The notes beneath the pieces were generated by a model. It ran no database searches. It saw only the letters and a program-made list of their open reading frames with translations, and was not told where the DNA came from. A program made the position numbers and the translations under genes. This document shows, one piece after another, positions 1,604-29,470 of a DNA stretch of 40,939 bases. Every line of letters begins with the position of its first letter. Within the stretch, counting starts at the first letter, position 1. Origin of the DNA: Clostridiales bacterium (GTDB lineage: Bacteria; Bacillota; Dethiobacteria; Dethiobacterales; Dethiobacteraceae); assembly GCA_018335855.1 (NCBI GenBank), contig JAGXRM010000029.1:1-40939 (forward strand), written 5' to 3'.

Positions 1604-4600
1604 ATGACGGAAAAAGTACGGCAGGTATATTCCCGTTTACACATAATTACGAGGTCGACAATCATTGTTGCTGTGATCCTGCTTACATTGGCCGGCTTAG
1701 TCTTTGTAGCCGCAGCTGGCAGTGGTATTAGTTTCAGTGGCCAAACCCCGGTCGGAGGAAGCGTGCTTTCCTCGGTGCCGCCTTTGGTATCGTTGGATAT
1801 TGGTGTAAACCAGGGTTTACTGATAGTGGACGATATATTTATGAAACTTAACGGGTCTTCTGTTAATCCATCCTTGGATAGTATCACGGGAGGCTACCGG
1901 CTTTCCTACGTGCCTGGGACACTGGCTAACGGAGTGCATACGGTATATGCCGGGGTCTATGACTCAGTGAAGGGGACTTACGAAACAACGAATTGGAGTT
2001 TCACCGTCGATGCTGCACCAAATGTCCTGGAGCGATATCCGGCCTCAGGCGCTACATTAAACATCTCAAACCCACAGGTGACTTTGCGTGTTAGAGATAC
2101 GTATGACAATCTTAATGCTATGTCTGTTAAAGCCAAGTTAAACGGCAATCCTGTGGCAACCACGTTTAAGTTCAAAGGCTACGAGCAGTATGACTCTTGC
2201 AGTAATACAACGACTTGGATTATCACAGATCGCAAGGAAGGGACGATTAGTCTTGACACCCCTGTGCTGGAGAACGGTACGCATACCGTTGAAGTGAGCA
2301 TTGCTGATACTAATGGGAATGTTTTGGTGGATACATGGTTCTTTGATGTTGTATCACAAGTTAAGTTCAGCAATTTTACACCGGCCAATAATACGGTTAC
2401 CGGTTTATCAAAGCCGACCATTTCTGTACGTGCTGTAGATGGAACGATAGACATGGAGAGTATTGAAATGTTGCTTGACGGTGTAGATGTTACAGCAGGC
2501 ATTACGATTCAGCCTATAGTTAATGGCTATAATATTTCGTATACACCGAGTAGCAATTTATTGGATAAACAATACACCGTAATGGTCAACATGTTTGACA
2601 CATATAAGGGTGTCTATGAGTCCACAAGCTGGAAGTTTACTGTGGATGCTGCTCCAAAGCCCAGCAAGTGGTACCCTGCTAAAGGCAGCACCCTTACATT
2701 CTCTAACCCGAAGATTTCTCTATACGTTAAGGATACATATGATAATTTGAACAGCACATCGGTAAGTGCCAAAATAAACGGAGTTCCCTTCGGTGCGACA
2801 TTCGCATATGAGACTGTTATTGACGCCTGTACCGGGGCTGTGACCGCGATTAAGTATAGAGAAGGGACAATTGAAGTCAACACCTCAGTACTTGAGGATG
2901 GGATTCAGAATGTGGAAATAAGCATTGCGGATGTTGCAGGGAATGTGATGACAGAAACTTGGTCTTTCACTGTAGCTGAACTGCCAAAGATTAGCAGCCT
3001 GTCTCCTGCAAACAAAAGCGAGTTAGCTAGTGCATCCCAGGTATCTGCTGTTGTAACGGATAATGTTGGGGTGGACTGGAATAGCGTAAAGCTTTACATT
3101 AATAACAGTCACGTTCCCCACACCTATGACGAAGCTACAGGAAAGGTTACTTATGACAACGACTTCATAACCGGCAATTACAATGTGAAACTGGAAGCAA
3201 GAGATCTGCGTGGGAACTTGGCTACTTCCAACTGGAGCTTTATTGTCAGTTCAACAGGCCCGACGCTGACAAAATTCTTGTATCTTACAGAAGGTATGAC
3301 AATCACAAATGGTATGCTTAGGTTACATGCTCAACTTAACAGTACGGTTGAAATCAACGATAATGTGATGTTAACGTTAAACGGTGAACCACTGGACTTT
3401 GCTTTCAGATATCAGGGGTATGTTGACTCTTGTACCGGAGTGTACATTATAACTTCCTTAAAAGAAGTATTTGTTGACTATAATAAGAAGGTAGCCGATG
3501 GGGACTTTACCGTTGTACTTACAGCGGAAGACAAATTCGGCAACCTTGCGGCATATACCAGATCGTTTACGGTTCGGACATTTCCTGTAATCTCAAATGT
3601 GGCTCCTTTTAAATATGGTCTACAGGAATTACAGCCAACCATTTCTGCCACTGTGACGGATAATGACTCGTTCCAATCTATTGTCCTAAAATTAAATGGG
3701 GTTGTAGTGGATGCGGATTACAATCCGGGTAACGGAAAGCTTACGTACACTCCGTCTGTACTGCTGGATAATGAGAGCAACTATACAGTTTCCTTGACGG
3801 CTATTGACCGGATTGGACTGACGACTAGCAAAACCTGGGGATTCAATATCAATACGTATCCGGATATGTTGGATTCCAATATAAGTATGTGCTTGCCCTG
3901 CCACGGGAATAAGAGCAACCGGTCGTTACCTTATGAAGCTGTTCACCTAGACTATTTCTGGGATCATTATGGTACTGGTTGCGACTATTGCCATAACTAC
4001 GTCACAGCACTTGACGTTTGCGGCAGATGCCACGATTCCGGGTCGGATCTTTACCAAGCCGATAACTTTCCTCCGCATGGTCTCAATCCTAATAAAAAAT
4101 ACTCGCCGAAAAACACAACTGGTTCCTTCCCACTTAGGGTGACAACCAACAGGGAAAACTGGGATTGCATTATTTGTCACCAGCCCGGGGCGGGCACCAG
4201 ATACAGAGTGTCCGGGTCTACCTTTAGATTGCTAAACAACCACGATATTCCACAGCTGCACGTTGCGCCATTGACGCAGGACAACGAGTCTTGTATCCAA
4301 TGTCACGCAAGGTCACTGACCAGGGAGCATGCGAGGGAAGGGCGTAAGGATCGAGCAGGTCAGACTATTACCTGCCTCACCTGCCATGTGAGTGTAAATA
4401 CGCAGGTGCAGGGTGCGATAGCAGCCAAAGATACGACCTGTACGGCTTGCCATGATATTAACTCGACTTCGGGACACTCTGATATGCATGTTGTCAGCTT
4501 AGGAGACCAGTGTGTTACGTGCCACGGCAATAACATGACTAGCGAGAAAGTATACCATCAGGATGATGGTTGCAAGGGTTGTCACAATAATTCAGAACCT

Positions 4601-5005
4601 CGGGTTCAAAGTGCCATTCAACTGCAAAACCGTACTTGTTTTGGCTGTCATGAGACGCCACATGGTGTGAAGATGACGGTGGTACGTGACGATATTGCCT
4701 TGTATAGTGGCTTGGTTTGGTCGAAGCCGGATCCGGCTGTTGTGTGGGCTGGGGAAGGCTGGCTGCCGGAAGAGTTGAACAATGACATGGCGCTGGTGCT
4801 CTTTAGTGCGGTGGTTTCTCTGGATAAAAATGTTGTCAGTTCCTTCTACAAGTCCGAGATGGTTGGACTTGGTTGGGTGCTTGTGGAAGAATCAGCGGAC
4901 AATGGCGGATTTAGTCTGCTTTACAGAAAAAGCCGCCGTCATTGCCTGATCCGTTATGTCCAGACAGCGGGCGGCGGATACAGGGTGATTACCGCATATA
5001 ACTAG
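1604..5005 (+). CDS. Large decaheme c-type cytochrome with about seven Ig-like repeats
   Basis: This 1133-residue exported protein starts at ATG 1604, 7 bases after a TAGGAGGG ribosome site. A hydrophobic segment at about residues 20-40 is a signal peptide or anchor. Residues about 45-760 hold about seven Ig/cadherin-like repeats, each ending in a W-x-F-x-V type strand. Two roughly 210-residue blocks within them are near copies (both carry TVDAAP and DTYDNLN). Residues about 765-1030 hold ten CxxCH motifs (CLPCH, CDYCH, CGRCH, CIICH, CIQCH, CLTCH, CTACH, CVTCH, CKGCH, CFGCH). The last about 100 residues form the same heme-free tail as in the upstream paralogue. The rigid beta stack may push the heme domain through the thick cell wall; that is inference. 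A strong terminator follows. Confidence 0.93.
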   Translation: MTEKVRQVYSRLHIITRSTIIVAVILLTLAGLVFVAAAGSGISFSGQTPVGGSVLSSVPPLVSLDIGVNQGLLIVDDIFMKLNGSSVNPSLDSITGGYRLSYVPGTLANGVHTVYAGVYDSVKGTYETTNWSFTVDAAPNVLERYPASGATLNISNPQVTLRVRDTYDNLNAMSVKAKLNGNPVATTFKFKGYEQYDSCSNTTTWIITDRKEGTISLDTPVLENGTHTVEVSIADTNGNVLVDTWFFDVVSQVKFSNFTPANNTVTGLSKPTISVRAVDGTIDMESIEMLLDGVDVTAGITIQPIVNGYNISYTPSSNLLDKQYTVMVNMFDTYKGVYESTSWKFTVDAAPKPSKWYPAKGSTLTFSNPKISLYVKDTYDNLNSTSVSAKINGVPFGATFAYETVIDACTGAVTAIKYREGTIEVNTSVLEDGIQNVEISIADVAGNVMTETWSFTVAELPKISSLSPANKSELASASQVSAVVTDNVGVDWNSVKLYINNSHVPHTYDEATGKVTYDNDFITGNYNVKLEARDLRGNLATSNWSFIVSSTGPTLTKFLYLTEGMTITNGMLRLHAQLNSTVEINDNVMLTLNGEPLDFAFRYQGYVDSCTGVYIITSLKEVFVDYNKKVADGDFTVVLTAEDKFGNLAAYTRSFTVRTFPVISNVAPFKYGLQELQPTISATVTDNDSFQSIVLKLNGVVVDADYNPGNGKLTYTPSVLLDNESNYTVSLTAIDRIGLTTSKTWGFNINTYPDMLDSNISMCLPCHGNKSNRSLPYEAVHLDYFWDHYGTGCDYCHNYVTALDVCGRCHDSGSDLYQADNFPPHGLNPNKKYSPKNTTGSFPLRVTTNRENWDCIICHQPGAGTRYRVSGSTFRLLNNHDIPQLHVAPLTQDNESCIQCHARSLTREHAREGRKDRAGQTITCLTCHVSVNTQVQGAIAAKDTTCTACHDINSTSGHSDMHVVSLGDQCVTCHGNNMTSEKVYHQDDGCKGCHNNSEPRVQSAIQLQNRTCFGCHETPHGVKMTVVRDDIALYSGLVWSKPDPAVVWAGEGWLPEELNNDMALVLFSAVVSLDKNVVSSFYKSEMVGLGWVLVEESADNGGFSLLYRKSRRHCLIRYVQTAGGGYRVITAYN

Positions 5006-8458: not shown

Positions 8459-8502
8459 GTTGTAAATTCCAAAAATTAAAAGCGTAAACAATTGTGTGGA
8501 GG

Positions 8503-8532
8503 GCGGGAAGCGTAGGCTTCCCGCTTATTTTT
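8503..8532 (+). terminator. Intrinsic terminator of etfBA
   Basis: A perfect 9-bp GC-rich stem (GCGGGAAGC at 8503-8511 with 8516-8524) has a 4-base loop and is followed by TTATTTTT. Confidence 0.92.
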
Positions 8533-8765: not shown

Positions 8766-9737
8766 ATGAAGCGAAAAACGTTCATAAAGGTTGTCCTAGT
8801 ATTAGTGATAGCGTTAACTGCACTTTTTTTGTACTTATTCCTGACACGCAATACGCTTCTTGACAGAGTTCCTTTCCTGCCGCAAAGAAATCCTGTTCCT
8901 GTTTTTTTGTATTACCTGGATGATCAGGGGTTAAACGCCCCCGTTGGTGTGGCTACCGATGACTTGGACTACATATATATTACTGATACACGCAATAGCA
9001 GGGTGGTTGTTTTTAATAATAATGGTTTTAAATTACGTGATTTTGGACAGAACCATTTAGACCGGCCCGTATCTGTTTCTATCCTGAAAGGTTCCGTATA
9101 TGTTGCCGATCTGGCGCTACAAAGGATTCAGGTGTTCACCTCACAAGGTACGTTTAGAGAAACGTTAGTTGCCAGCGGTGAGAATAAGGACGTGGGGGTC
9201 TTTATTCCCACAGCTGTTACAGTAGACGATGAAAAAGGTTTGTTGTTTTTTACTGACGCGGCTTGGCATCGTGTTGTTGTGCTTGACCGGGATGGTAATT
9301 TTCGTTTTTCTTTTGGAAGTTCCGGTTCAGGACAGGGAGAATTTCTTTACCCCAACGGAATTGTTTTAGATACAAACAAGAATATCTATGTGGCCGATTC
9401 AAACAATGGCCGAATCCAGGTTTTTTCGCCTGACGGGAAAGAGGTCATTCGGGTAATCACGGGCTCCGGAAAACAAGGGGGTACGTTTGCGCTACCCAGG
9501 GGAATGGCAGTAGACAAGTCGGGTAGGTTGTGGGTTGTTGATTCCCTGGCTCATAATGTTTCCGTATTTGACGACGAGAGGAAATTGTTTTCTTTTGGTA
9601 AGCTTGGTACGGAGCAGGGGGAATTTTATTTTCCCAATACTGTGGCTTTGGACTCGGTTGGCCGAATCTATGTTACGGAGCGGGGCATGAATCGGGTCAG
9701 TGTCTTTACCTTGTCAGGTAATCCCCTTGCACGGTAG
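8766..9737 (+). CDS. Membrane-anchored NHL-repeat beta-propeller protein (copy 1)
   Basis: The 323-residue product has one N-terminal membrane helix at about residues 7-26 ending in LYLFLTRN, then an extracytoplasmic six-bladed NHL propeller. Repeats of the kind 'P.GVAVD..GNIYVADS.N.RIQVFS..G' recur at about residues 56, 100, 150, 200, 245 and 290. NHL propellers bind other proteins. Next to multiheme cytochromes they are common in Geobacter-type loci, but the exact role is not settled. It is followed after 3 bases by a hexaheme cytochrome, and the pair is duplicated at 11819-14033. The G-rich ribosome site (8743-8747) lies unusually far, 18 bases, from the ATG, with no in-frame start in between because of a TAG at 8754. 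Confidence 0.9.
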   Translation: MKRKTFIKVVLVLVIALTALFLYLFLTRNTLLDRVPFLPQRNPVPVFLYYLDDQGLNAPVGVATDDLDYIYITDTRNSRVVVFNNNGFKLRDFGQNHLDRPVSVSILKGSVYVADLALQRIQVFTSQGTFRETLVASGENKDVGVFIPTAVTVDDEKGLLFFTDAAWHRVVVLDRDGNFRFSFGSSGSGQGEFLYPNGIVLDTNKNIYVADSNNGRIQVFSPDGKEVIRVITGSGKQGGTFALPRGMAVDKSGRLWVVDSLAHNVSVFDDERKLFSFGKLGTEQGEFYFPNTVALDSVGRIYVTERGMNRVSVFTLSGNPLAR

Positions 9738-9740
9738 GAG

Positions 9741-11114
9741 GTGAGTTCAATCAGTAGGTTGCTGCTTAGAAAAGTATTGTTGATTTTACTGATTGTCTCC
9801 GTCATGCTACTGCAGGAGGCCGCCAGTGACGGTTCGGCTCCGCGTCGGATAGAAGTTGTGGTTACACAGGAATTCGGCGAATTCACTGCTCCCACAGGAA
9901 AATCGTTTATTATCCTTTACTGGGAAGAGCTTGATAACACGGCAGTTCAGTCTGAGTATGCTGTCTTTGAATCAAAGGTGGATAAAAATGGCTTATCCTG
10001 GCTTGAGCACGGTTATGGTAGCCGGGTAACATCACCTGTGTCGGGCGAGGAAGGTTACCTGGGATACTATCGCTACCCGGGTATTGTTACTATTGAGTCG
10101 GCGCAAACAGATTATCAAAACTACACATACCATGTGGGTACGAATCCAGACAACAGTTATAGTTCTGCCAGAGTCTACCCTCCTTCAGAAAATTATCATG
10201 CCAACTACCAGAAGAACACAGCAACATGTCAGGGCTGCCACAGCACTCACTATGCGCGACATCCGATGCTTTTAAACGAACGGATCATGTATAATATTTG
10301 TATTGAATGTCACGGAGACACCGGCACTTTCAGTAAGTATAATGTTTTGCAGGGGACAGTTGAGATTTCTCCAGGCGTGAAGGTACCGTCTCCGGCCGGG
10401 GCATTTGATTCTGTCGAAACCACTTCATTTCATAACGTTTTTTTGGAGGACGACTTTGAGTCATCAAGCATGTTTCTATTGCATGCACCGGGTAGTGGAG
10501 GGGAAAAATACAACCTGACCTGTACGGATTGTCACAGTGCCCATGTGACTTCGCACAGTAGCGGTTACCGGCTGCTTAAATTCCGGACAACACCGGTTAC
10601 CGCTTACTCATATGTTAGTGATGGTAAATATAATGTTTACTATGTCAACGGTATGAACAGCTTCTGTTCCAACTGTCATAGTTACTATAATTACGGCGAC
10701 GGATCCGAGCACGATTTTCCGGAGCATGTTCTTCGCCAGGAAGACGGAGATGGAATTAAAAAAAGCGGGGAGTTTTACCGACACCCCACAAACATTCAAG
10801 TAAGTAACTGGTTTGATTCATATACAGAACGGAACTTTACATTGCCGTTGGAGTCCAGAGATGGTGGAAAATACATGACCTGTAAGACATGTCATTATGC
10901 CCATGGAACAGCAATTATTGGTGAACAGGTATCTCCCGAGCTTACGGCTATCGGTGAAACTAAGTACGGCTACACAACGGATGAATTTGGAAACCGTATA
11001 GCTGAACCAAAAGATACAAGTTCCATGTTAAAAAGACTGGATGGAATGGGTATCTGCCTTCAATGCCACCTTAGCCAGATTTGGTCAAATACTGCTTATG
11101 AGATGCAAAATTAA
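9741..11114 (+). CDS. Hexaheme c-type cytochrome, possible OmcS-like filament type (copy 1)
   Basis: This exported protein (up to 457 aa) has a hydrophobic signal segment, a heme-free beta-rich domain resembling fibronectin type III at about residues 35-135, then six CxxCH motifs: CQGCH-STHY, CIECHGD, CTDCHSAHV, CSNCH, CKTCHYAHG and CLQCH. Four features also occur in OmcS-type nanowire cytochromes, as I recall that sequence: a closely spaced first pair of hemes, a CH-x-x-H heme 1, an HPT segment after heme 4 and a terminal heme close to the C-terminus. Filament formation is inference. The start is uncertain. GTG 9741 overlaps the perfect ribosome site AGGAGGTGA (9736-9744), TTG 9759 is far away, and an ATC at 9750 has the best spacing. 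Confidence 0.9.
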   Translation: MSSISRLLLRKVLLILLIVSVMLLQEAASDGSAPRRIEVVVTQEFGEFTAPTGKSFIILYWEELDNTAVQSEYAVFESKVDKNGLSWLEHGYGSRVTSPVSGEEGYLGYYRYPGIVTIESAQTDYQNYTYHVGTNPDNSYSSARVYPPSENYHANYQKNTATCQGCHSTHYARHPMLLNERIMYNICIECHGDTGTFSKYNVLQGTVEISPGVKVPSPAGAFDSVETTSFHNVFLEDDFESSSMFLLHAPGSGGEKYNLTCTDCHSAHVTSHSSGYRLLKFRTTPVTAYSYVSDGKYNVYYVNGMNSFCSNCHSYYNYGDGSEHDFPEHVLRQEDGDGIKKSGEFYRHPTNIQVSNWFDSYTERNFTLPLESRDGGKYMTCKTCHYAHGTAIIGEQVSPELTAIGETKYGYTTDEFGNRIAEPKDTSSMLKRLDGMGICLQCHLSQIWSNTAYEMQN

Positions 11115-11165
11115 ATAAGTAGTTAATTTTAAATAACAACATAGATAGTATGGGAGAGAACAATT

Positions 11166-11768
11166 ATGGAAAGTGAAAAGCGGGTAGGTGCCATTCCCGT
11201 ATTAGTAGTAATCGCGCTTATTTTACTGGGCGCTGCCGTTTTTGCCGTTTATTTTGAAGATCAGCTGTTTGGTGTTCAGGTACAGAGTAGTACAAATATG
11301 CAAGTGTTTGCACTGCAAGCTTATGTGGACCAGGATCCGTATAATGAACAAGCCAAAGTGAATCTTGGTTGGCTGTATTATTCGCAAGGTGAGTACGAAC
11401 AGGCAAGAGAACAGTTGGAGCAGGCGGTTGAGCTTGACCCGGAAAGCCAGGTTGCTTTCTACAACCTTGGTTTGGTTTATATGGAATTGGAACAATATGA
11501 TGCTGCGGAAAAGTGCTTGTTACGTTCATTAGATCTTGCCCGCCACCCAGACATCTTATATGTTGCACTGGGAGAGTTGTATCTGAGAAAAAGCGACTAT
11601 GATAAGGCGCTGGAGTATTTGGAGCAAGGAGAACATTGGTTGTCCACTTCCCCGGACATATATATTCGCATGGCCAGAGCATATAACGGAAAAGGGATGT
11701 CAAAAGAAGCAAACCAGTATTATGAAAAGGCTTACAGCTTCGATCCGGAATTACGCGGGACAAAATGA
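11166..11768 (+). CDS. Membrane-anchored TPR protein
   Basis: This 200-residue protein has an N-terminal membrane helix (about residues 9-27) and then four to five tetratricopeptide repeats from about residue 45 to 195, for example VNLGWLYYSQGEYEQAREQL and AFYNLGLVYMELEQYDAAE. The TPR face should sit outside the membrane and hold a partner. Lying between the two NHL-cytochrome pairs on the same strand, it may act in cytochrome assembly, export or filament biogenesis (inference). The start ATG 11166 follows GGGAGAG. TPR genes also accompany Geobacter and archaeal filament-cytochrome loci, as far as I recall. Confidence 0.9.
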   Translation: MESEKRVGAIPVLVVIALILLGAAVFAVYFEDQLFGVQVQSSTNMQVFALQAYVDQDPYNEQAKVNLGWLYYSQGEYEQAREQLEQAVELDPESQVAFYNLGLVYMELEQYDAAEKCLLRSLDLARHPDILYVALGELYLRKSDYDKALEYLEQGEHWLSTSPDIYIRMARAYNGKGMSKEANQYYEKAYSFDPELRGTK

Positions 11769-11818
11769 CACAACTGGGATAATGATTTTGGGAGGTCTGT
11801 GGCGGTAGCCAATCGTAT

Positions 11819-12808
11819 ATGAAAAAAAAGCAGTTTATTATTGGGGTACTGGTTATTATAATCGTCTTGCTTGCTATTTTTCTATATCTTTATCTGACAA
11901 GAAATGAGATATTGTACAACATTCCTGGCTTTTCCAGGGAGAGGGTTCCCACGTTTCAGTATTACTTGCAGGGCGATCCCCAGGATACTATGGACTCACC
12001 CATGGGGGTGGCTGTGGATGGTTTGGGAAATGTGTATGTGACTGATGCGGATAAAGACCGTGTGATTATGTTTGACAAAAGTGGAAAAATACTTCGTACA
12101 TTTGGCGAGTCCGGCACAGGCGAGGGGCAGTTGGACTACCCCTATGGTATTGCTATCTACAATAATGAAGTGTATGTGGCGGATAAAGGCAATAATCGAG
12201 TGCAGGTGTTTTCAGATACAGGTGAATATCTACGAACTTTGGTACGTAGCACCGAAAGTAGTCCTGCGGGTGTTTTCGAACCAGCGGGAATTACGTTTAA
12301 CCTACAAACCGGTGATATCTATATTACAGATTTGCTCGGGCATAGGATTATAGTTCTTAATAATCAAGGGCAGTTTATCCGTGACATCGGAGGAGCTGAG
12401 AGCGGTAGCGGATTTTTCCTTGCTTTCCCTAACGGGGTGGCGGTGGATGACAAAGGAAATATTTATATAGCAGACTCTAATAACGCACGTGTTCTGGTGG
12501 TTTCGGCAGACGGTAAGAGATTGCTGCGTGAGGTTGACGGAGAAAAAGATGATGAGGGCCGGTTCTCTTTACCGCGCGGAATTGGTGTGGATAGTACAGG
12601 CAGGATCTGGATTGTCGACACGTTGAATCACCGTGTCACCGCTTATCAGGGCGGGAACCGTTTGTTGCAGTTTGGCGAACTGGGTGTTAAAGAAGGTGAG
12701 CTGTATTTTCCAAATGGATTGGCTTTAGATAAAGAAGGGCGTATTTATGTGACAGAACGGGGCTTGAATCGCATCAGTGTTTTCGGGACGCAAGCCGTGA
12801 TTAAATAG
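11819..12808 (+). CDS. Membrane-anchored NHL-repeat beta-propeller protein (copy 2)
   Basis: This 329-residue paralogue of the 8766-9737 product has the same layout. An N-terminal membrane helix ends in FLYLYLTRN, and six NHL repeats follow (for example PMGVAVDGLGNVYVTDAD and PNGVAVDDKGNIYIADSN). The last repeat (FPNGLALDKEGRIYVTERGLNR) closely matches copy 1, pointing to duplication of the NHL-cytochrome pair. The ribosome site GGGAGG at 11790-11795 is 23 bases before the ATG, again distant as in copy 1. Both leaders have GGTAGC between the two. A hexaheme gene follows after 16 bases. Role as for copy 1: probably a cell-surface scaffold. Confidence 0.9.
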   Translation: MKKKQFIIGVLVIIIVLLAIFLYLYLTRNEILYNIPGFSRERVPTFQYYLQGDPQDTMDSPMGVAVDGLGNVYVTDADKDRVIMFDKSGKILRTFGESGTGEGQLDYPYGIAIYNNEVYVADKGNNRVQVFSDTGEYLRTLVRSTESSPAGVFEPAGITFNLQTGDIYITDLLGHRIIVLNNQGQFIRDIGGAESGSGFFLAFPNGVAVDDKGNIYIADSNNARVLVVSADGKRLLREVDGEKDDEGRFSLPRGIGVDSTGRIWIVDTLNHRVTAYQGGNRLLQFGELGVKEGELYFPNGLALDKEGRIYVTERGLNRISVFGTQAVIK

Positions 12809-12824
12809 TAACGGAGGGTGAAGC

Positions 12825-14033
12825 ATGTTTAGACGGGTAGCAGTTGTATTCATGGTTCTGCTTTTTGTAATAGGCGTCACTGTATTGACACGCACCCCCT
12901 CTGAGGCGGCGGCGCCCCGGAGGATTGAAGTATCTGTTACACCTGCTGGCAGCGGCCAATCCAACATAAGACTGCAATGGGAAGGTTCATTTACTGTGCA
13001 GAGGTTGAGTAGCATTAACGCAAACGGTGATACGTCGTGGTCAACGTTGGCATCAGGGGTTACCACTTTTAACCAGGATGTGGATGATTATAGGAACTAT
13101 GTGTATCGTGTCGGTGATGGGATCACATGGCAGGAAGCCCGTGTCTATCCACCCAAAGAAAGTGCGCATACCAATTACTCTATGAACTCAGATACCTGCA
13201 AAGGATGCCACCGTACTCACTACGCAGTGCATAAAAAGCTGCTCTCCCATCGCATTGTTTTTGAATTGTGTATAACATGTCACGGGGATAGCACCGGGAG
13301 CAAATATAATGTGCTGACGGGTATGACCCGCATCGGTCCGGGGACAAATGATGTGGTTGGTTCGCCAGCCGGTGCGTTTAGTACTGCAGGAACCACTTCG
13401 TATCATAATGTGTTCCTGGAGGCGGAAGGCGAAGAATTTTCGGCACCGGGTGGCAGTAAGATGACACTTACCTGTACTGATTGTCACAGTGCCCACGTGA
13501 CGCCTGACAGCAGTCCGTTCCGCCTGTTGAAGCTTATTGGTTCTGGTCCGGTGGATGCCTACTCCGTGGCCAACGGTAGCTCTTACACAACGGTTTACCG
13601 CCGGTACATGAATGATTTCTGCTCCAGTTGCCACGCTTTGTATAACTATAATACACACGCGATGACGGATAGTTGGCCCGACGGCAAAAGGCGGGGTGAC
13701 GGGATTAAAGCTCATCCGTCCAGTGGGGATATTTATCGGCATCCGACGGATTTGGACATAAAGAAGTGGTTGGCTGATCGGGGATTAACAACAACCATGT
13801 CGTTACCGTTGGAGAAGCGGGTTGAAGGCAGTCAGTCTGTTCACCGTTTAAGCTGTATCACCTGCCATATGGCCCATGGTACCAAGGTAAGTGGCGTGCA
13901 GGTATCCCCTGAGCCGGGAGTTGTCAAGATTGATAAAGACGGGCAAGCAGTGCCTAACTCTACCATGCTAAAACGTACAGGATACATGAGTGTCTGCATG
14001 GAGTGCCATCTGGACATTTCATTTGTACAATAA
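12825..14033 (+). CDS. Hexaheme c-type cytochrome, possible OmcS-like filament type (copy 2)
   Basis: A 402-residue exported cytochrome starts at ATG 12825 after GGAGGGTGAAGC. The signal peptide is about residues 1-29 (FRRVAVVFMVLLFVIG, then cleavage near AAAPRR). A short beta-rich domain runs to about residue 105, and six CxxCH motifs follow: CKGCHRTHY, CITCHGD, CTDCHSAHV, CSSCH, CITCHMAHG and CMECH. Order and flanking residues match copy 1 almost exactly, including RHPTD after heme 4 and ...SxMLKR before heme 6. It lacks about 30 residues of the N-terminal domain of copy 1. Six bis-His hemes in about 400 residues fit filament-forming cytochromes; whether it polymerises cannot be seen from sequence. 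Confidence 0.92.
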   Translation: MFRRVAVVFMVLLFVIGVTVLTRTPSEAAAPRRIEVSVTPAGSGQSNIRLQWEGSFTVQRLSSINANGDTSWSTLASGVTTFNQDVDDYRNYVYRVGDGITWQEARVYPPKESAHTNYSMNSDTCKGCHRTHYAVHKKLLSHRIVFELCITCHGDSTGSKYNVLTGMTRIGPGTNDVVGSPAGAFSTAGTTSYHNVFLEAEGEEFSAPGGSKMTLTCTDCHSAHVTPDSSPFRLLKLIGSGPVDAYSVANGSSYTTVYRRYMNDFCSSCHALYNYNTHAMTDSWPDGKRRGDGIKAHPSSGDIYRHPTDLDIKKWLADRGLTTTMSLPLEKRVEGSQSVHRLSCITCHMAHGTKVSGVQVSPEPGVVKIDKDGQAVPNSTMLKRTGYMSVCMECHLDISFVQ

Positions 14034-14096: not shown

Positions 14097-14546
14097 ATGG
14101 AACAGGTCGGACAAGTGATAGAAGTGAACGGTGATTTTGCCAGAGTGATAGTAAGGCGCCATGATACCTGCAGCAAATGCGGTGGGTGCGGTGTGGCGAT
14201 TGCCGGGCCTGGAGATAATTACGTAGATGCACAGAATGTTGTGAACGCAGTGGTGGGACAGACGGTAAAAGTCACCAGCGATACATCCCACGTGCTAAAG
14301 TCATCTTTTGTTGTATACATGATGCCAATTCTGGCGCTTCTGGCAGGCATTTATGCAGGCCAGGAGCTAAGTAGTGCACTGGGATTATTTGTACGGCTGG
14401 ATATTGTGTTAGGTCTCGTTTTATTTTTCGCATCGTATCTGTTTGTCCGTGGGTACGACAAGAAAATAGCGGGAGGAAATTCAAAAGTTACGGTAACGGC
14501 GATTGTTGAAGAAGAAGACGTGCTGCCTAAGGATGCCAGATGTTAG
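14097..14546 (+). CDS. RseC/MucC-family positive regulator (SoxR-reducing system protein)
   Basis: This 149-residue membrane protein has an N-terminal beta-rich domain with a redox or metal Cys cluster (CSKCGGCG, about residues 23-30), two membrane helices at about 68-90 and 96-118, and a short soluble tail. This is the standard RseC layout; the family accompanies Rnf/Rsx complexes and SoxR reduction. No rnf genes are seen here. Its place at the end of the cytochrome operon suggests a link to membrane electron flow or to keeping heme-binding cysteines reduced (inference). It starts at ATG 14097 after TTGGAGGTG, and its 3' end overlaps the next gene by 7 bases. Confidence 0.85.
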   Translation: MEQVGQVIEVNGDFARVIVRRHDTCSKCGGCGVAIAGPGDNYVDAQNVVNAVVGQTVKVTSDTSHVLKSSFVVYMMPILALLAGIYAGQELSSALGLFVRLDIVLGLVLFFASYLFVRGYDKKIAGGNSKVTVTAIVEEEDVLPKDARC

Positions 14547-15100
14547 TCTTGGGACTTGCGGGGAGCCCAAGACGGGGGGGAAACTCTGAGACTCTGCTGG
14601 ATGAAGCGTTGGCCGGGGCAAAAGAAGCCGGAGCCACGGTGGAGAAGGTGGTCCTGTCTACGAGAAGTTTTTCTCCGTGTATCTCCTGCGGCGAGTGTGA
14701 GAAGACCGGGATCTGTGTAATTGATGATGATATGCAGGATATACATAAACTGATCAGTGACTGTGACGCCATGGTTTTTGCTTCCCCGATTTATTTTTAT
14801 TCCGTGTCAGCCTGGGCTAAAGCGGCTATTGACCGCTCGCAGGCTTTGTGGTCTCGTAAATATATCTTAAAAGATCCCCGGTTCACTGCAGATAAAAAAG
14901 GTGTGTTTATCGGTGTGGGAGCAACGAAGGGAAGTAAGCTTTTCGACGGCACACTACTGACGATGAAATATTATTTCGATGCGGCCGGGTTTTATCCCGC
15001 AGGTCAACTACTAGTACGTGGCGTGGACGAAAAAGGCCAAATCCTCAACCACCCCGACCACTTGGCCGCGGCTAAAGCCTTGGGGTCGGGATTGCTCTGA
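14540..15100 (+). CDS. Iron-sulfur flavoprotein / NADPH-dependent FMN reductase family
   Basis: The 186-residue product has a flavodoxin-like FMN-binding fold: the N-terminal phosphate loop GSPRRGGNSETLL, then ASPIYFYSVSAWAKAAIDR around the flavin. Between them CISCGECEKTGIC gives a compact Cx2Cx2Cx5C pattern, the spacing of the archaeal iron-sulfur flavoprotein (Isf), which holds one [4Fe-4S] cluster. It probably passes electrons between ferredoxin or NAD(P)H and an unknown acceptor in the cytoplasm. It overlaps the RseC-like gene by 7 bases, so the two are translationally coupled. A long palindrome follows its stop. Confidence 0.88.
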   Translation: MLVLGLAGSPRRGGNSETLLDEALAGAKEAGATVEKVVLSTRSFSPCISCGECEKTGICVIDDDMQDIHKLISDCDAMVFASPIYFYSVSAWAKAAIDRSQALWSRKYILKDPRFTADKKGVFIGVGATKGSKLFDGTLLTMKYYFDAAGFYPAGQLLVRGVDEKGQILNHPDHLAAAKALGSGLL

Positions 15101-15106
15101 AAATCA

Positions 15107-15152
15107 GGGGACGGTTCTCAAGTTGCACTTTTGCAACTTGAGAACCGTCCCC
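15107..15152. repeat. 46-bp perfect palindrome (REP-like)
   Basis: A perfect 21-bp stem (15107-15127 with 15132-15152) has a 4-base loop. Its ends are GGGGACGGTTCTC and GAGAACCGTCCCC. No T-run follows, so it is not a classical terminator, though it may stop or stabilise transcripts. Palindromes ending in GAACCGTCCCC recur in many Peptococcaceae genomes as far as I know, so this is probably a dispersed element. Other copies cannot be checked here. Confidence 0.85.
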
Positions 15153-15275
15153 GGGGTAGCATCCCAAAAGTTGCAGAAAATTGACCGGACAGCCGGTCAT
15201 TTTTGTTGTTGTACGTTTTTTTTTGCAGGAAAAAGAGAATTTATGTCAAAAAAGAATAAGGGGAGGGATGCGCTG

Positions 15276-16846: not shown

Positions 16847-17452
16847 ATGATTGATTTTCAAAAGGAACTGTCTAAATTTGATTTTTTTACAATTGATCGT
16901 GAATTTGCAGGCCATTATAACGAGACAGCACAGGTTATTGACGTTTTCAATGTAACCCTCAGGCGTATCGGTAAAGAAATGAGCAATGCGAATATTCAGC
17001 TTGAGGAAGTTTTGGTCCAGGCTATGGAAGAAAAGGAAAAGGACAGGTATATTGCAGAGCAGAAGGCAACGATAGCCGCTTGTGAGGAAGCAAAGCTATC
17101 CCTTGTCCAGGGGTTAGTGGCTGTGCTTGACCAGCTTGAAAATATATACAGGTATGCGTTGAAAAACGAACGAGGTAGTTGGTCTGAGCAAGTACAGTTT
17201 TTATGGAGTGATACGTCAGCGATTTTGTTGCAGCAGGGAATAGTACGCGTCGAGGGTGAGAATACTCTTTTTGATTCACGGCTCCATTCCGCGGTACAGG
17301 TTAAAGAGGGCAGCAACATCCCAAACGGACTGATTCTCGAAGTGTTGCGTTGTGGGTATATGTATCAGTCACGTCTGATAAGAAAAGCACAGGTGATAGT
17401 AAATAAAAATGACGGAGGTAGCGAAGGTAATGAGCAATATGGTAGGGATTGA
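16847..17452 (+). CDS. GrpE-like nucleotide exchange factor
   Basis: This 201-residue protein is the first gene of an Hsp70 cluster. Residues about 45-85 are a charged helix likely to form the GrpE coiled coil. The C-terminal head keeps the GrpE pattern 'FD.RLH.AV...EGSNIPNG.ILEVLRCGYM...R.IRKAQVIV' (about residues 145-190). The N-terminal part is divergent, so this is an accessory paralogue rather than the housekeeping GrpE. It should release ADP from the downstream Hsp70. The downstream start codon lies inside its last codons (overlap 23 bases), so the two are coupled. Confidence 0.88.
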   Translation: MIDFQKELSKFDFFTIDREFAGHYNETAQVIDVFNVTLRRIGKEMSNANIQLEEVLVQAMEEKEKDRYIAEQKATIAACEEAKLSLVQGLVAVLDQLENIYRYALKNERGSWSEQVQFLWSDTSAILLQQGIVRVEGENTLFDSRLHSAVQVKEGSNIPNGLILEVLRCGYMYQSRLIRKAQVIVNKNDGGSEGNEQYGRD

Positions 17453-19148
17453 CCTAGGCACTTCTACATCGGAAATCGCTGTTTTAAAAGACGGGAAACC
17501 GTATGTCATCCCAAATCATCTGGGAGAATACATAACCCCATCGGTTGTCGGACTCTCGGCTGACGGAAGGATTATCGTCGGAAAAGAAGCCCGGGATCAA
17601 CTGTTGTTAAAACCGGATGATACGGTCATTGAGGTTAAGAGGTTAATGGGAAGCGGCACGACCGTTTTTATGGGAGGAAAGGAATACACTCCGCAGCAGA
17701 TTTCCGCTTTTATACTATCCTATCTTGTTGATTGCGCCCGCAAGTATCTCGGTGAAGATATTGACAGAGCGGTCATCACTGTGCCCGCCTATTTTTCCGA
17801 TACACAGAGACGTGCTACCGTAGAAGCGGGGAAACTTGCCGGAATCAAGGTAGGGCGTATTGTAAACGAGCCTACCGCAGCAGCGCTTGACTACGGGATA
17901 GACCATATGCGGGAATGTCAAAATATCCTGATCTATGACTTGGGCGGAGGAACGTTAGACGTTACCGTCCTGGAAATGTTTGAAGGTGTTCTTGATGTCA
18001 AAGCAAGCTGCGGCAGCAACCGGCTGGGCGGGAAAGACTTTGACCAGCGGCTCATGGATTACCTCTTAAGCAGGTTTGCCACCCGCTACAATCTGGATGT
18101 TTCCGGAGATAAAAGAGCGTTGATGCGTTTAAAAGATGCGGTGGAAAAATGCAAGATAGCGCTGAGCGATCAGGAAGAGTACCATTTGCTTATTCCATTC
18201 TTTGCCAAGGTGGGGGAAAATCCGGTTTCCCTTGAAGAAATCGTGAGCAGGGAGACATTTGAAAGCCTTATAGAAGAACTGATTGAATCCACGGCAAAAC
18301 AAATCAACACAGCCCTGTCTGACGCGGGCCTTACTGCTTCCGATATTGACCTTATCCTGCTTGTCGGCGGCTCAACGCGTATTCCTTACGTGCGAAGTTT
18401 TATTGAGAGAACCTTAGGCAAAGTTCCCCAGTCACTGATTGATCCGGATCTGGCAGTGGTAAGAGGTGCCTCTGTTCAGGTGGGTATTCTGGACAACCAG
18501 TTATCTTCAGAGCAGGACATTGTTATAACAGATGTCTGCCCCTACACACTTGGCACTTCTGTGCTCGAATACATTGGCGGTTTTCCTGTTAGCGACGCTT
18601 ATGATGTCATTATCCCGAGAAATGTGACGATACCGGTGGTAAAAGAAAAAATATATGGAACGGCCGCAGATAATCAAACCGTGGTTGAAATCAATGTCTA
18701 CCAGGGAGAATTCAAGAAGGCATCCCATAATAACTTCCTGGGAAAATTCATGTTAAAAGGTATCCCCCCTGCTCCGGCTTTTCAAGAAAAGATTGCTATT
18801 TCCTTTTCGTATGATGTAAACGGCATTCTGCAGGTGGAAGGAAGAATCGTAAGCACAGAGAAAAAGGTCAGTCTGGCAATTGAGACAACCGGGGTGGAAA
18901 TGGTCAGCGAGGTCGATACTGAAGGGTGGGACAAGGCTTCAGGTGCCCGCAAATACAAAGCGATTATCAAAAAAGCTGGCCGTATGCTGGAAACGGGAGA
19001 AGCACAGTACTATGCCATAGAAATGGAAAGCCTGATTCGAAAAATAAAAACAGGGTTGGTGCGGGGCGACGAACCGGAAATAATTGATGCGCTTAAAGAA
19101 GAACTTCATGAGATCATCTATGAGCTTACGGAGGGAAAGGATGTTTGA
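17430..19148 (+). CDS. Accessory Hsp70 (DnaK-like) chaperone
   Basis: This is an Hsp70 ATPase of 572 residues from ATG 17430, chosen because GGAGG at 17414-17418 sits 11 bases upstream; an earlier ATG at 17409 has no ribosome site. ATPase motifs are complete: GIDLGTSTS, VPAYFSDTQRRAT, NEPTAAALDYG, DLGGGTLDVTV and LLVGGSTRIPYVR. The substrate-binding part (about 385-500) is recognisable but shortened, and the C-terminal lid is about 70 residues, without the acidic tail of DnaK. With its own GrpE, a TPR protein and a J-protein in one overlapping operon it should form a dedicated chaperone machine; the client is unknown. The closest named family is DnaK. Confidence 0.94.
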   Translation: MSNMVGIDLGTSTSEIAVLKDGKPYVIPNHLGEYITPSVVGLSADGRIIVGKEARDQLLLKPDDTVIEVKRLMGSGTTVFMGGKEYTPQQISAFILSYLVDCARKYLGEDIDRAVITVPAYFSDTQRRATVEAGKLAGIKVGRIVNEPTAAALDYGIDHMRECQNILIYDLGGGTLDVTVLEMFEGVLDVKASCGSNRLGGKDFDQRLMDYLLSRFATRYNLDVSGDKRALMRLKDAVEKCKIALSDQEEYHLLIPFFAKVGENPVSLEEIVSRETFESLIEELIESTAKQINTALSDAGLTASDIDLILLVGGSTRIPYVRSFIERTLGKVPQSLIDPDLAVVRGASVQVGILDNQLSSEQDIVITDVCPYTLGTSVLEYIGGFPVSDAYDVIIPRNVTIPVVKEKIYGTAADNQTVVEINVYQGEFKKASHNNFLGKFMLKGIPPAPAFQEKIAISFSYDVNGILQVEGRIVSTEKKVSLAIETTGVEMVSEVDTEGWDKASGARKYKAIIKKAGRMLETGEAQYYAIEMESLIRKIKTGLVRGDEPEIIDALKEELHEIIYELTEGKDV

Positions 19149-19704
19149 AAGTCTGTCCGGTTTTTTCTATAACTCAGGGCTGCGGCTGGCGGGAGAAGAT
19201 CAAATCAGTAAAGCTGTACAGAACCTAGTTAAAGCTGTAAGTTATAACAGCGATAATATTGAGGCCTGGAACCTGGCAGGCTTGTGTTATTACCGTCTCG
19301 GCAAGTACAAAACGGCCGAATATTGCTGGAAGCAAAGTGTGAATAAACGCCGGGAAGGAAACGCGGCCAACGATTTTCTGGAGGATTTAAGAATTTCTCA
19401 GGCAGAAACCGCTCCGTATTTCTCCCAGGTTGCCTCTCTTTGCCAGCAAAGAAAATACGGGTACGCTGCCGGCATTGTGAGCAAAGAAATCTGTACCCGG
19501 TTTGATTTATCAGTCGGTTTACTAAACTTCCTGGGTGTTTTGCGGATGATTGACGGCAAGACAAAAGAGGCTGTTAAATGCTGGACAACTGTTTTAAACA
19601 TGGACAAATCAAATGCTGATGCGGATCTGTACTTAACAAACATGGAAAACCGCCTGAGTTACAGGCTGTTAAAACTGTTGGACAGATTATACAAAAGGGA
19701 ATGA
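19141..19704 (+). CDS. TPR protein of the Hsp70 cluster
   Basis: The 187-residue product starts at ATG 19141 after GGAGGGAAAGG and overlaps the Hsp70 stop by 8 bases; an upstream in-frame ATG at 19084 is inside the Hsp70 gene and unlikely. Two clear tetratricopeptide-like repeats are visible ([20 protein letters not shown] and [20 protein letters not shown]), with no membrane segment. It is presumably a cytoplasmic adaptor binding Hsp70 or a client. It has no similarity I can name beyond TPR. Its stop overlaps the ATG 19701 of the next frame, so all four genes are tightly linked. Confidence 0.88.
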
Positions 19705-19709
19705 TTTCA

Positions 19710-21059
19710 ATGAAGGACTATTATCGCACGCTTAACATTACCAAAAACGCAACGGTTGCGGAGATAAAAAAGGCCTATTTCGCGTTCGTCAGAAAATACC
19801 CCCCCGACCGGCATCCCGATGAATTTATGAAGATCCGGGAGGCTTATGAGGTTTTAGTTGACGAGAATACACGCCAGCAGTACGATGCAGTAGATTCCAT
19901 GCCGGACATTGTAAAAGTATATTTTAAAGAAGGGCAGAAGGCACTGGAGAACGGGGCTGTCGCGGAAGCAATCCGGCTTCTGGAGCAGGTCGTCAAAGCG
20001 TATCCGCGCTTTTCTGTAGTGAAGAGCCTGCTGGGAGATGCATATTTAGAAAACGAAAACAGCGGTAAAGCTATCCGTATTTTTGAGGAACTTGCAACCG
20101 ACGAACGCAATAATGCCGGGTTTGCCCGCCAGCTAGCCCAGGCCTACGCCTTGCGCGGCTGGTATAAGAAAGCGGTCGAACAGTTCAACAGGGCATTATC
20201 CCTTGATGAAGATAACATTTCACTTTGGCTGGGACTGATTGATTGCTATCTGGCAAGCAAAGATTTTGAGAATGCCAAAGAAACAGTCCAAAACGGCCTT
20301 GACGTCAGTAACCAAAAAGGCTGGGACAACCTGGAGCTGTATTTCCATATCGTTCAGATTGATATTTTTTCCGGCGACCATATTAACATGAAAAAGCATC
20401 TGGAAGAGATGAAAAACAAAGCGCTAGAAAAGGACGAAGAAAAAGCCCATGTAGCTTGGTTCTTAGGTACACTTTCTAAAAAGATCCAAGACATTGGCTT
20501 ATATGAAGAATCAGCAGCCACAATTGAAGCGGCGTTCGCGTTGCAGCCGGATGACGAAGAACTTTACAAAATTAAACGGGAAATAGACGCACAGTATGGC
20601 ATCTACGCCCAGCTCAGGAAGCTTGAAGAGGACACTGCTATAAAAAGCAGTTTAGCTGAAATGCTGGAATTTGAGTTGCATATTTGTGGCAATAAGTATT
20701 GCCTAGACTGTAAAGTTACACAATTATTTTTTGAGATGGATGTCATTGCGGAGATTATGCCTTACAGAAAAGATATATTGAGGCTGAAAAACTCCTACCC
20801 TGAGTTGTATAATTTGAAAAAGGACTTTTTTGATAGCGTACTCAACCACAAAAAAGAGGAATACCTGTTTGACATCTATCGGAAAAAGATTAATAAATAC
20901 AAAAAGCTGTGCCCCGAGAGATTTGAACTAGACGATGCAAATGAATATGAATACTACAATCAGAAACCTTACAGGCGCCCCGAACCAAAGGTTGGACGCA
21001 ATGACCCTTGCCCCTGTGGTAGCGGGAAAAAATATAAAAAATGCTGTGGCGGTTCGTAG
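19710..21059 (+). CDS. J-domain/TPR/SEC-C protein with a degenerate HPD motif
   Basis: The product is 449 residues from ATG 19710, with AAGGGA 9 bases upstream; ATG 19701 has no spacing. Residues 1-65 are a J-domain ([20 protein letters not shown]...KIREAYEVL). The loop that should read KYHPD reads [10 protein letters not shown], so the key His of HPD is Pro, and an HPD occurs three residues later. Residues about 70-300 carry several TPR repeats ([31 protein letters not shown] and others). The last 20 residues are a SEC-C zinc motif ([15 protein letters not shown]), as in SecA. It is the probable co-chaperone or recruiter of the Hsp70 above. Confidence 0.92.
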
Positions 21060-28269: not shown

Positions 28270-28323
28270 ATGAGAGAAAAATTATTAGGCTTTTGTAGAG
28301 GCAAAACACTGCCTATTTGTTGA
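28270..28323 (+). other. 17-codon ORF, possible 5' remnant of an interrupted gene
   Basis: ATG 28270 follows GGGTAAGGGCGG and reads MREKLLGFCRGKTLPIC before TGA, overlapping the 3' end of the minus-strand AlbA-type gene. A good ribosome site before such a short frame at the cassette edge would fit a gene cut when the cassette arrived. It may equally be chance. Confidence 0.2.
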
Positions 28324-29470
28324 TAGAGCGGTGTATAGTGACTTTAAAAAGGTTTGCATTTCTTTCATCTTCAAAGTCGATATTTGGATATTCTTTCAGA
28401 GCCCTCCTAATTCCATTGCCTAGTCCACGATAAGGCAGTATCTTTGTTGCAAATGAAGTTAAAATCGGATTCCTGATATTTGAGTTACCACTTTTTATAT
28501 TTTCAACAGTTAAATTATTAGGTAAATGCCCTGGACTTATAATCTCAATACGATCATCAAAGAGGAATATGCGAATAGGCGCTGAAACAAAATAATCCCT
28601 ATGAATGAGTGCGTTGACTACTAATTCCTCTAATGTAACCTTAGGAATTTCAAGCTCACCGAGAGAGTTTACATTCCGCCCATTCTGTAGGCGACCAATA
28701 TTACGAGTGATAAAACTCATCACTCGTGTAAACACATCTTTCAGCGAGCCCGCTATATCTTCGCTATCACGATATTCAGAAGAATGAATATTATTTCCGG
28801 GGTAAGAAACACACTTGACTATAAATACCGGCAATCGAAGCTGTGGAGTTTTTGTAAACAGCAAGGCTCCGGCAACATTAAGGATGCCGTTATTCATTAG
28901 ATTCATATTTTCCAAGATAGTTGGTAAAGGAAGTTCTTGGGCTTCAAGTTCCTCTTCATATTGTTTACGGAAAAATTCGCGAAAGTAATCCAAATCAAGA
29001 TCAGCAACCGTTAACCCATTTGCCGGGATTTGGTCGCCGTGTATTAGCCCGGAGCTTTGAAACATCCTCTGAATTTCTTCTCTCGATGTCACTTTACGTT
29101 TATCCGCTCCACTTTTGACCCAGATTGCACCGCTATTGTCCATATAGGGTTTACTGATACCTGGATGAATAGTAACAACCATAACTAACCCGTCAGGCAT
29201 TTCTACATTCTCGGTTTGTGGATTGATGGGAGGACGAACTGACTGAGATGCAGTATTAGAAACAAGCGTATTAAGCCTTCCTAAATCAGCGCGTGTTAAT
29301 CCTGCAATATTTCCGTCATTAGTAATACCTATGAAAATTCGGCCACCGCTTGCATTACTGAACGCGACCATTTCAGCAGCTAAGGCGTTTTCATTGTTGA
29401 TATTTGCCTTAAACTGGTTTCTGCCGTCTTCTTCACGACCAATTATTTTTATTAGTTCCGTGGGTTCCAT
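28313..29470 (-). CDS. AlbA_2 (Schlafen-like) DNA/RNA-binding protein with C-terminal HATPase domain
   Basis: The product is 385 residues. The N-terminal about 120 residues form the AlbA_2 domain (NQFKANINNENALAAEMVAF, NASGGRIFIGITNDG, WVKSGADKR), found in transcription regulators, Schlafen proteins and many defence genes. Residues about 270-370 are a GHKL-type ATPase (EELVVNALIHRDY, IEIISPGHLP, YRGLGNGIRRAL). The middle is a RecG-like linker. Proteins of this layout are often labelled 'ATP-dependent DNA helicase RecG-related', but no helicase motifs are present. It overlaps the upstream PHP-ATPase gene by 19 bases, so the two act as one unit. The role is probably sensor or regulator in a defence module (inference). 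It is AT-richer than its neighbours. Confidence 0.88.
   Translation of the reverse strand: MEPTELIKIIGREEDGRNQFKANINNENALAAEMVAFSNASGGRIFIGITNDGNIAGLTRADLGRLNTLVSNTASQSVRPPINPQTENVEMPDGLVMVVTIHPGISKPYMDNSGAIWVKSGADKRKVTSREEIQRMFQSSGLIHGDQIPANGLTVADLDLDYFREFFRKQYEEELEAQELPLPTILENMNLMNNGILNVAGALLFTKTPQLRLPVFIVKCVSYPGNNIHSSEYRDSEDIAGSLKDVFTRVMSFITRNIGRLQNGRNVNSLGELEIPKVTLEELVVNALIHRDYFVSAPIRIFLFDDRIEIISPGHLPNNLTVENIKSGNSNIRNPILTSFATKILPYRGLGNGIRRALKEYPNIDFEDERNANLFKVTIHRSINK

Follow-up and report, generated by a model that had tools for sequence, protein, structure and literature searches.

A 40,939-nucleotide stretch of DNA from a Clostridiales bacterium of the family Dethiobacteraceae (contig JAGXRM010000029.1, positions 1 to 40,939; the window) carries, at positions 8766-14033, five plus-strand genes in which an NHL beta-propeller and a hexaheme cytochrome c occur as a pair twice, around a TPR gene. 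The first pair consists of NHL1 (8766-9737, 323 amino acids) and HEX1 (9741-11114, 457 amino acids, GTG start) and is followed by the TPR gene (11166-11768, 200 amino acids), NHL2 (11819-12808, 329 amino acids) and HEX2 (12825-14033, 402 amino acids), with gaps of 3, 51, 50 and 16 bases between consecutive genes. The first-pass annotation had reported this order, the paralogy of both pairs, and the presence of six CxxCH motifs, an HPT segment after heme 4 and a C-terminal last heme in each cytochrome, all of which holds. HEX1 and HEX2 share 42% identity (E 7e-98) and NHL1 and NHL2 46% (E 3e-94), while the CxxCH motifs lie at residues 163, 187, 261, 309, 381 and 439 of HEX1 and at residues 125, 149, 217, 266, 344 and 391 of HEX2, with a YRHPT segment after heme 4 and the final heme at the C-terminus. 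Both cytochromes match the paired-CXXCH family of Pfam (E 5e-11 and 2e-13, respectively) and have N-termini resembling signal peptides.

The NHL repeats of both propellers exceed the Pfam cut-off (PF01436, E 2.2e-34 for NHL1 and 4.6e-40 for NHL2), and the TPR protein matches its Pfam family at E 2.4e-25. According to hydropathy, NHL1, NHL2 and the TPR protein each have a single strong hydrophobic stretch at the N-terminus and none further on (in NHL1 the peak falls within the first 30 residues), which suggests that all three are probably anchored in the membrane by one helix and face the cell exterior.

The hexahemes also possess an extra N-terminal domain (approximately residues 31-112 in HEX2), which had been noted at first pass as a beta domain unlike anything in OmcS, the filament-forming cytochrome of Geobacter sulfurreducens. 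This description was confirmed and refined to an Fn3/Ig-like beta-sandwich: a PDB profile search returned Fn3-like entries (3mpc, E 0.0022), the AlphaFold2 model contains about seven beta strands here (confidence score, pLDDT, about 55-71), and a Foldseek search with that model gave weak FN3/Ig-type matches (best E 0.018). The predicted fold is thus a small beta-sandwich of a type often used in binding; that it serves as a wall adaptor is a guess.

The closest sequenced relatives of the hexahemes are found in metagenome-assembled genomes of Dethiobacter sp., and the genome from which the window derives (2.96 Mb, 99.5% complete) yielded no match in a search for Omp85, whereas the identical search was positive in seven control genomes. 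The absence of Omp85 agrees with a single-membrane envelope, so that the Gram-positive host that had been proposed can be specified as a monoderm-type member of the Bacillota. The genome contains three open reading frames for cytochrome-c assembly. Dethiobacter alkaliphilus, a cultured close relative, is described in PMC10376724 as an Fe(III) reducer, in which the multihemes of comparable clusters go up on ferrihydrite.

Homology of the hexahemes to OmcS

A scan of 398 Bacillota genomes (one per species), with both hexahemes of the window and their family relatives as queries, gave hexaheme matches at an E value of 1e-15 or better in 24 genomes; a scan of viral contigs for further homologues gave none. 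An alignment of 31 Bacillota homologues was used both for profile searches and for analysis of conservation. When this profile was compared with all PDB sequences, OmcS (6ef8/6nef) was the best match (E 1.2e-21, 80 bits), followed by 6r2q (presumably MtrA within an MtrCAB structure, although the entry bears a different name) at 3.4e-8, an octaheme nitrite reductase at 3.8e-5 and 7tfs, which we take to be OmcE, at 5.5e-5, while the match to an NrfA-type cytochrome c-552 was weak and partial (E 0.0013). A smaller profile of only five family sequences had already ranked OmcS first (E 0.0038), and hhalign gave the family profile a probability of 99.4% against OmcS, with all six CxxCH motifs in register in the global alignment. 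The OmcS sequence used for these comparisons agrees letter for letter with the PDB chain.

Similarity arising by chance through the heme motifs was ruled out by a shuffle control, in which 1,000 shuffled versions of OmcS with intact heme motifs (500 of them also with every Cys and His in place) reached a maximum of 34.4 bits, compared to 80.4 bits for the real sequence. The OmcS-type layout proposed at first pass is thereby raised to homology, and the family search recommended there placed OmcS at the top among solved structures rather than nitrite- or sulfite-reductase-type cytochromes, the octaheme nitrite reductase match being partial as well as far weaker. The profiles indicate that the hexahemes are true but distant homologues of OmcS, and the Bacillota proteins appear to constitute a monoderm variant of the OmcS family.

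The only Cys and His residues conserved across the 31 homologues are those of the six CxxCH motifs and six additional histidines (H115, H132, H194, H224, H306 and H351 in HEX2 numbering), each of which is kept in 30 or 31 of the 31 sequences. This number would suffice for bis-His coordination of all six hemes, and with six conserved candidate distal histidines for six hemes no heme would be left open for catalysis. In the alignments H132, H194, H224 and H351 correspond to His16, H110, H147 and H335 of OmcS, and H115 corresponds to H2 in the global hhalign alignment. OmcS (H257) and HEX2 (H306) also have in common an RHP tripeptide downstream of heme 4, although the programs left it unaligned. 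His16 of OmcS is said to be the donor to the heme of the next subunit; its equivalent H132, which is the last histidine of a CxxCHxxH motif, is kept in 30 of the 31 homologues, and the sequence is compatible with either an intra- or an intermolecular ligand. In total, OmcS has 12 His ligands; at heme 505, one of them comes from the adjacent subunit (Filman et al., PMC6584659). The hexahemes thus resemble OmcS in having six hemes in the same order, a core that is homologous by profile, 12 candidate His ligands and (predicted) secretion. They differ in their Fn3/Ig-like N-terminal domain, in the shorter loops of the heme core and in their monoderm host, and are known here from sequence alone.

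Recurrence of the cassette and pairing of propeller and cytochrome

Maps of about thirty Bacillota loci show the order TPR-NHL-hexaheme in many families, often followed by an NHL gene and a second cytochrome, and because it recurs in so many other genomes the cassette is not a product of chance. An NHL gene lies directly upstream of 28 of the 31 hexahemes (gaps from -61 to 134 bases, mostly below 50), so that the association with NHL and TPR genes, which had been noted for Geobacter and archaea, proves both strong and general in Bacillota. Duplication, in contrast, was rejected as a distinguishing feature, since NHL-hexaheme-NHL-cytochrome runs occur in many Bacillota; the relatives examined have a single pair where the window has two. 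The pairing extends to several types of cytochrome (c6, c7, c12, c15), and the NHL gene nearly always stands on the upstream side. At loci L094 and L095 a variant layout was observed, in which TPR-NHL pairs face a divergent ten-heme cytochrome instead of lying upstream of one. Directly downstream of NHL-hexaheme cassettes in six other Bacillota loci (L072, L074, L075, L078, L080 and L092) are cytochromes of approximately 2,190-2,480 amino acids with 26-35 CxxCH motifs.

In the genome of the window, NHL repeats occur in only five open reading frames, all of which adjoin multiheme genes; two lie in the window, and contigs C27, C20 and C7 have one apiece. The three loci outside the window (L088 on C27, L089 on C20 and L090 on C7) are further cassettes, in which a dodecaheme cytochrome of about 380 amino acids with an N-terminal hydrophobic stretch is followed by a TPR gene, an NHL gene and a 6- or 7-heme cytochrome.

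The trees of the NHL proteins and the hexahemes agree, with copy 1 of the window as sister to the copy in genome G010 and copy 2 as the first to branch in the family clade. For 28 pairs the distance matrices of the two proteins correlate (r 0.66). Among 1,152 re-pairings, made within genomes only so that the species signal was retained, the mean r is 0.25 and none surpasses the actual pairing, which comes first. Given this top rank and the congruent trees, the NHL-cytochrome pair appears to duplicate and travel as a unit.

Some of these associations were already known, namely NHL and TPR genes near multihemes of Dethiobacter (PMC10376724) and a propeller in operons for extracellular electron transfer in Gram-negatives (PMC5539420). 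The clusters of D. alkaliphilus AHT1, including 2-Fe-T, combine multihemes with NHL and TPR proteins and are assigned in PMC10376724 to extracellular electron transfer or Fe(III) reduction; like the window, cluster 2-Fe-T has secreted cytochromes and electron-transfer flavoproteins alongside proteins with NHL and TPR repeats, and judged by the gene content given there it is very likely the same type of locus, in which DealDRAFT_1428, going by gene order, is probably the HEX orthologue. The main text of that paper compares its cytochromes with the secreted cytochromes of Thermincola and Carboxydothermus and is silent on OmcS and nanowires. OcwA and OmhA of Gram-positive Fe(III) reducers are also cell-surface multihemes of Bacillota tied to Fe(III) reduction, but have 9 and 11 hemes and are set apart from the hexahemes by description; the OmhA paper mentions neither OmcS nor NHL.

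In Geobacter, the osc (omcS companion) operon encodes proteins proposed to fold and secrete OmcS (Shen et al. 2025, cited via PMC13194489). A beta-propeller gene likewise lies within a conserved operon of related Gram-negative cytochromes for extracellular electron transfer, and the operon of the bacterial partner of anaerobic methanotrophic archaea has a six-bladed propeller together with a peptidyl-prolyl isomerase (PPIase) (PMC5539420). In all of these systems, as in the window, cytochromes for extracellular electron transfer are encoded with accessory proteins thought to fold, secrete or position them. The window locus differs in adding a TPR protein, in having one NHL per cytochrome and in having no 16- or 26-heme partner next to it; its NHL proteins would each be anchored by one helix, whereas the core propeller described in PMC5539420 lacks any transmembrane helix and carries a signal peptide.

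The solved cytochrome wires come from Geobacter and archaea, and a 2026 review of cytochrome nanowire structures does not mention Gram-positives, Firmicutes or NHL. In the literature searched, outside which key papers lie, no report was found of Bacillota hexahemes as OmcS homologues, of a TPR-NHL-hexaheme cassette recurring across Bacillota, or of each NHL co-segregating with its own cytochrome, an absence that is no proof of novelty. The recurring cassette names the exact genes to be sought in cultivable Gram-positives, through which electron wires in these organisms become directly testable, and turns the unexplained NHL genes near cytochromes into a testable hypothesis of one cognate propeller per cytochrome.

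Electron transfer and possible polymerisation

Following these results, the cytochromes would be exported by Sec and receive their six hemes outside the membrane through CcsA-type machinery, after which the cognate NHL propeller, anchored by a single helix, and the TPR protein would receive, fold or position them. The bis-His hemes would then pass electrons outward from the membrane, across the wall, to an acceptor beyond it, for example Fe(III). Subunits may polymerise in the manner of OmcS, head to tail, H132 of one (in HEX2) ligating a heme of the next, which would yield filaments, either short or long. That electrons are transferred to the cell exterior is very probable, and a role of NHL as assembly partner of the cytochrome is favoured somewhat over its absence. 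The complete account, in which secreted OmcS-family hexahemes, each with its own anchored NHL, relay electrons and most likely polymerise, has about an even chance of being right. Polymerisation into filaments, taken by itself, falls a little short of that and is nevertheless the likeliest single mode; if it takes place, HEX1 and HEX2 would probably form separate rather than mixed assemblies. The most specific version, i.e. OmcS-family nanowires of Bacillota running through or from the thick wall, with a dedicated anchored NHL (plus TPR) per subunit, two pairs making two wires, and neither porin nor PPIase, is at present a rather doubtful proposal.

Several observations weigh against the account as a whole. 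The large N-terminal domain, which OmcS does not have, might obstruct the filament interface. At about 26%, identity to OmcS is low and emerges at the profile level alone: a single OmcS sequence found no match in the window genome, and phmmer with HEX1 or HEX2 alone gave no meaningful match in the PDB. AlphaFold2 of HEX2 with a 4-sequence alignment reached a pLDDT of 39 for the mature protein and 31 for the heme core alone, and provided no usable heme geometry. Among the identified genes flanking the cassette there is no PPIase (OscH), porin or outer-membrane secretion component. Moreover, of OmcS and its Geobacter paralogues OmcT, OmcJ and GSU2501, only OmcS is known to form a wire (PMC12977616), and even for OmcS it is disputed whether the filaments are physiologically required (PMC11077965).

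Ranking directly behind polymerisation, and a real possibility, is that HEX1 and HEX2 are OmcS-family monomers, acting as wall relays that are held in a fixed complex by the Fn3-like domain and the anchored NHL and TPR proteins. The solitary status of OmcS as a wire among its paralogues fits this explanation, as do the N-terminal domain, which might act as a wall adaptor, and the nature of NHL and TPR, which are general protein-interaction modules (membrane-anchored here, by hydropathy) and are read as helpers of multiprotein complexes by the authors of PMC10376724. The conservation of all six distal histidines, including the His16 equivalent, is what would be expected if a swapped ligand were needed and thus points back to polymerisation, although an intramolecular ligand fits it too.

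Whether NHL is a physical partner of the cytochrome is a separate matter, since the bicistron could merely be co-inherited, with congruence as a by-product of tandem duplication; this would affect the partner role only. Such tight linkage yields congruent trees without any contact, so that the congruence, which might stem from linked duplication alone, supports a cognate partnership without proving it. Mere co-inheritance is nonetheless rather unlikely, as the pairing holds across many families and several cytochrome types and the window genome has no NHL gene apart from multihemes. Least probable by far is that the hexahemes are terminal reductases or other redox enzymes (of the nitrite, sulfite or tetrathionate type) with NHL as catalytic or substrate-binding partner: multihemes do serve in sulfur respiration in D. 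alkaliphilus (PMC10376724) and the weak nitrite reductase-type matches exist, but OmcS is ahead of these by at least 16 orders of magnitude, for which reason a nitrite or sulfite reductase identity was rejected, and each heme has a conserved candidate distal histidine.

Transcription unit and neighbouring genes

The interval proposed at first pass, 8766-14033, does contain the five genes, but the putative transcription unit is longer. It probably extends from 8766 through a plus-strand gene for an RseC/MucC-like membrane protein (14097-14546; PF04246, E 1.5e-24) and an overlapping plus-strand gene for an NADPH-dependent FMN reductase-like protein (14540-15100; PF03358, E 1.7e-23). The former is kept downstream of the cassette in Dethiobacteraceae (loci L001 and L087), and the latter has an equivalent position in relatives. 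On the upstream side the cassette adjoins electron-transfer flavoprotein genes, from which it is separated by a terminator-like hairpin on the plus strand (8501-8526, a consensus match only); together with a second such hairpin at 15182-15199 it brackets the putative unit. A further hairpin with a 20-pair stem (15107-15152) lies directly 3' of the FMN reductase gene and precedes the one at 15182-15199.

Elsewhere in the window, positions 1-1500 (cut by the window start) and 1604-5005 encode tandem large cytochromes with bacterial Ig-like repeats and about 10 CxxCH motifs each, which resemble MtoA-like decahemes with Ig domains known from D. alkaliphilus. After the cytochrome operon, 16847-21059 contains an extra HSP70 (17409-19148), a DnaJ-TPR-SEC-C fusion at 19701-21059 and further genes of the TPR type. 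On the minus strand, at 28313-32103, an AlbA_2/Schlafen-domain protein stands beside a large SMC/AAA_21-type ATPase, possibly as a defence pair.

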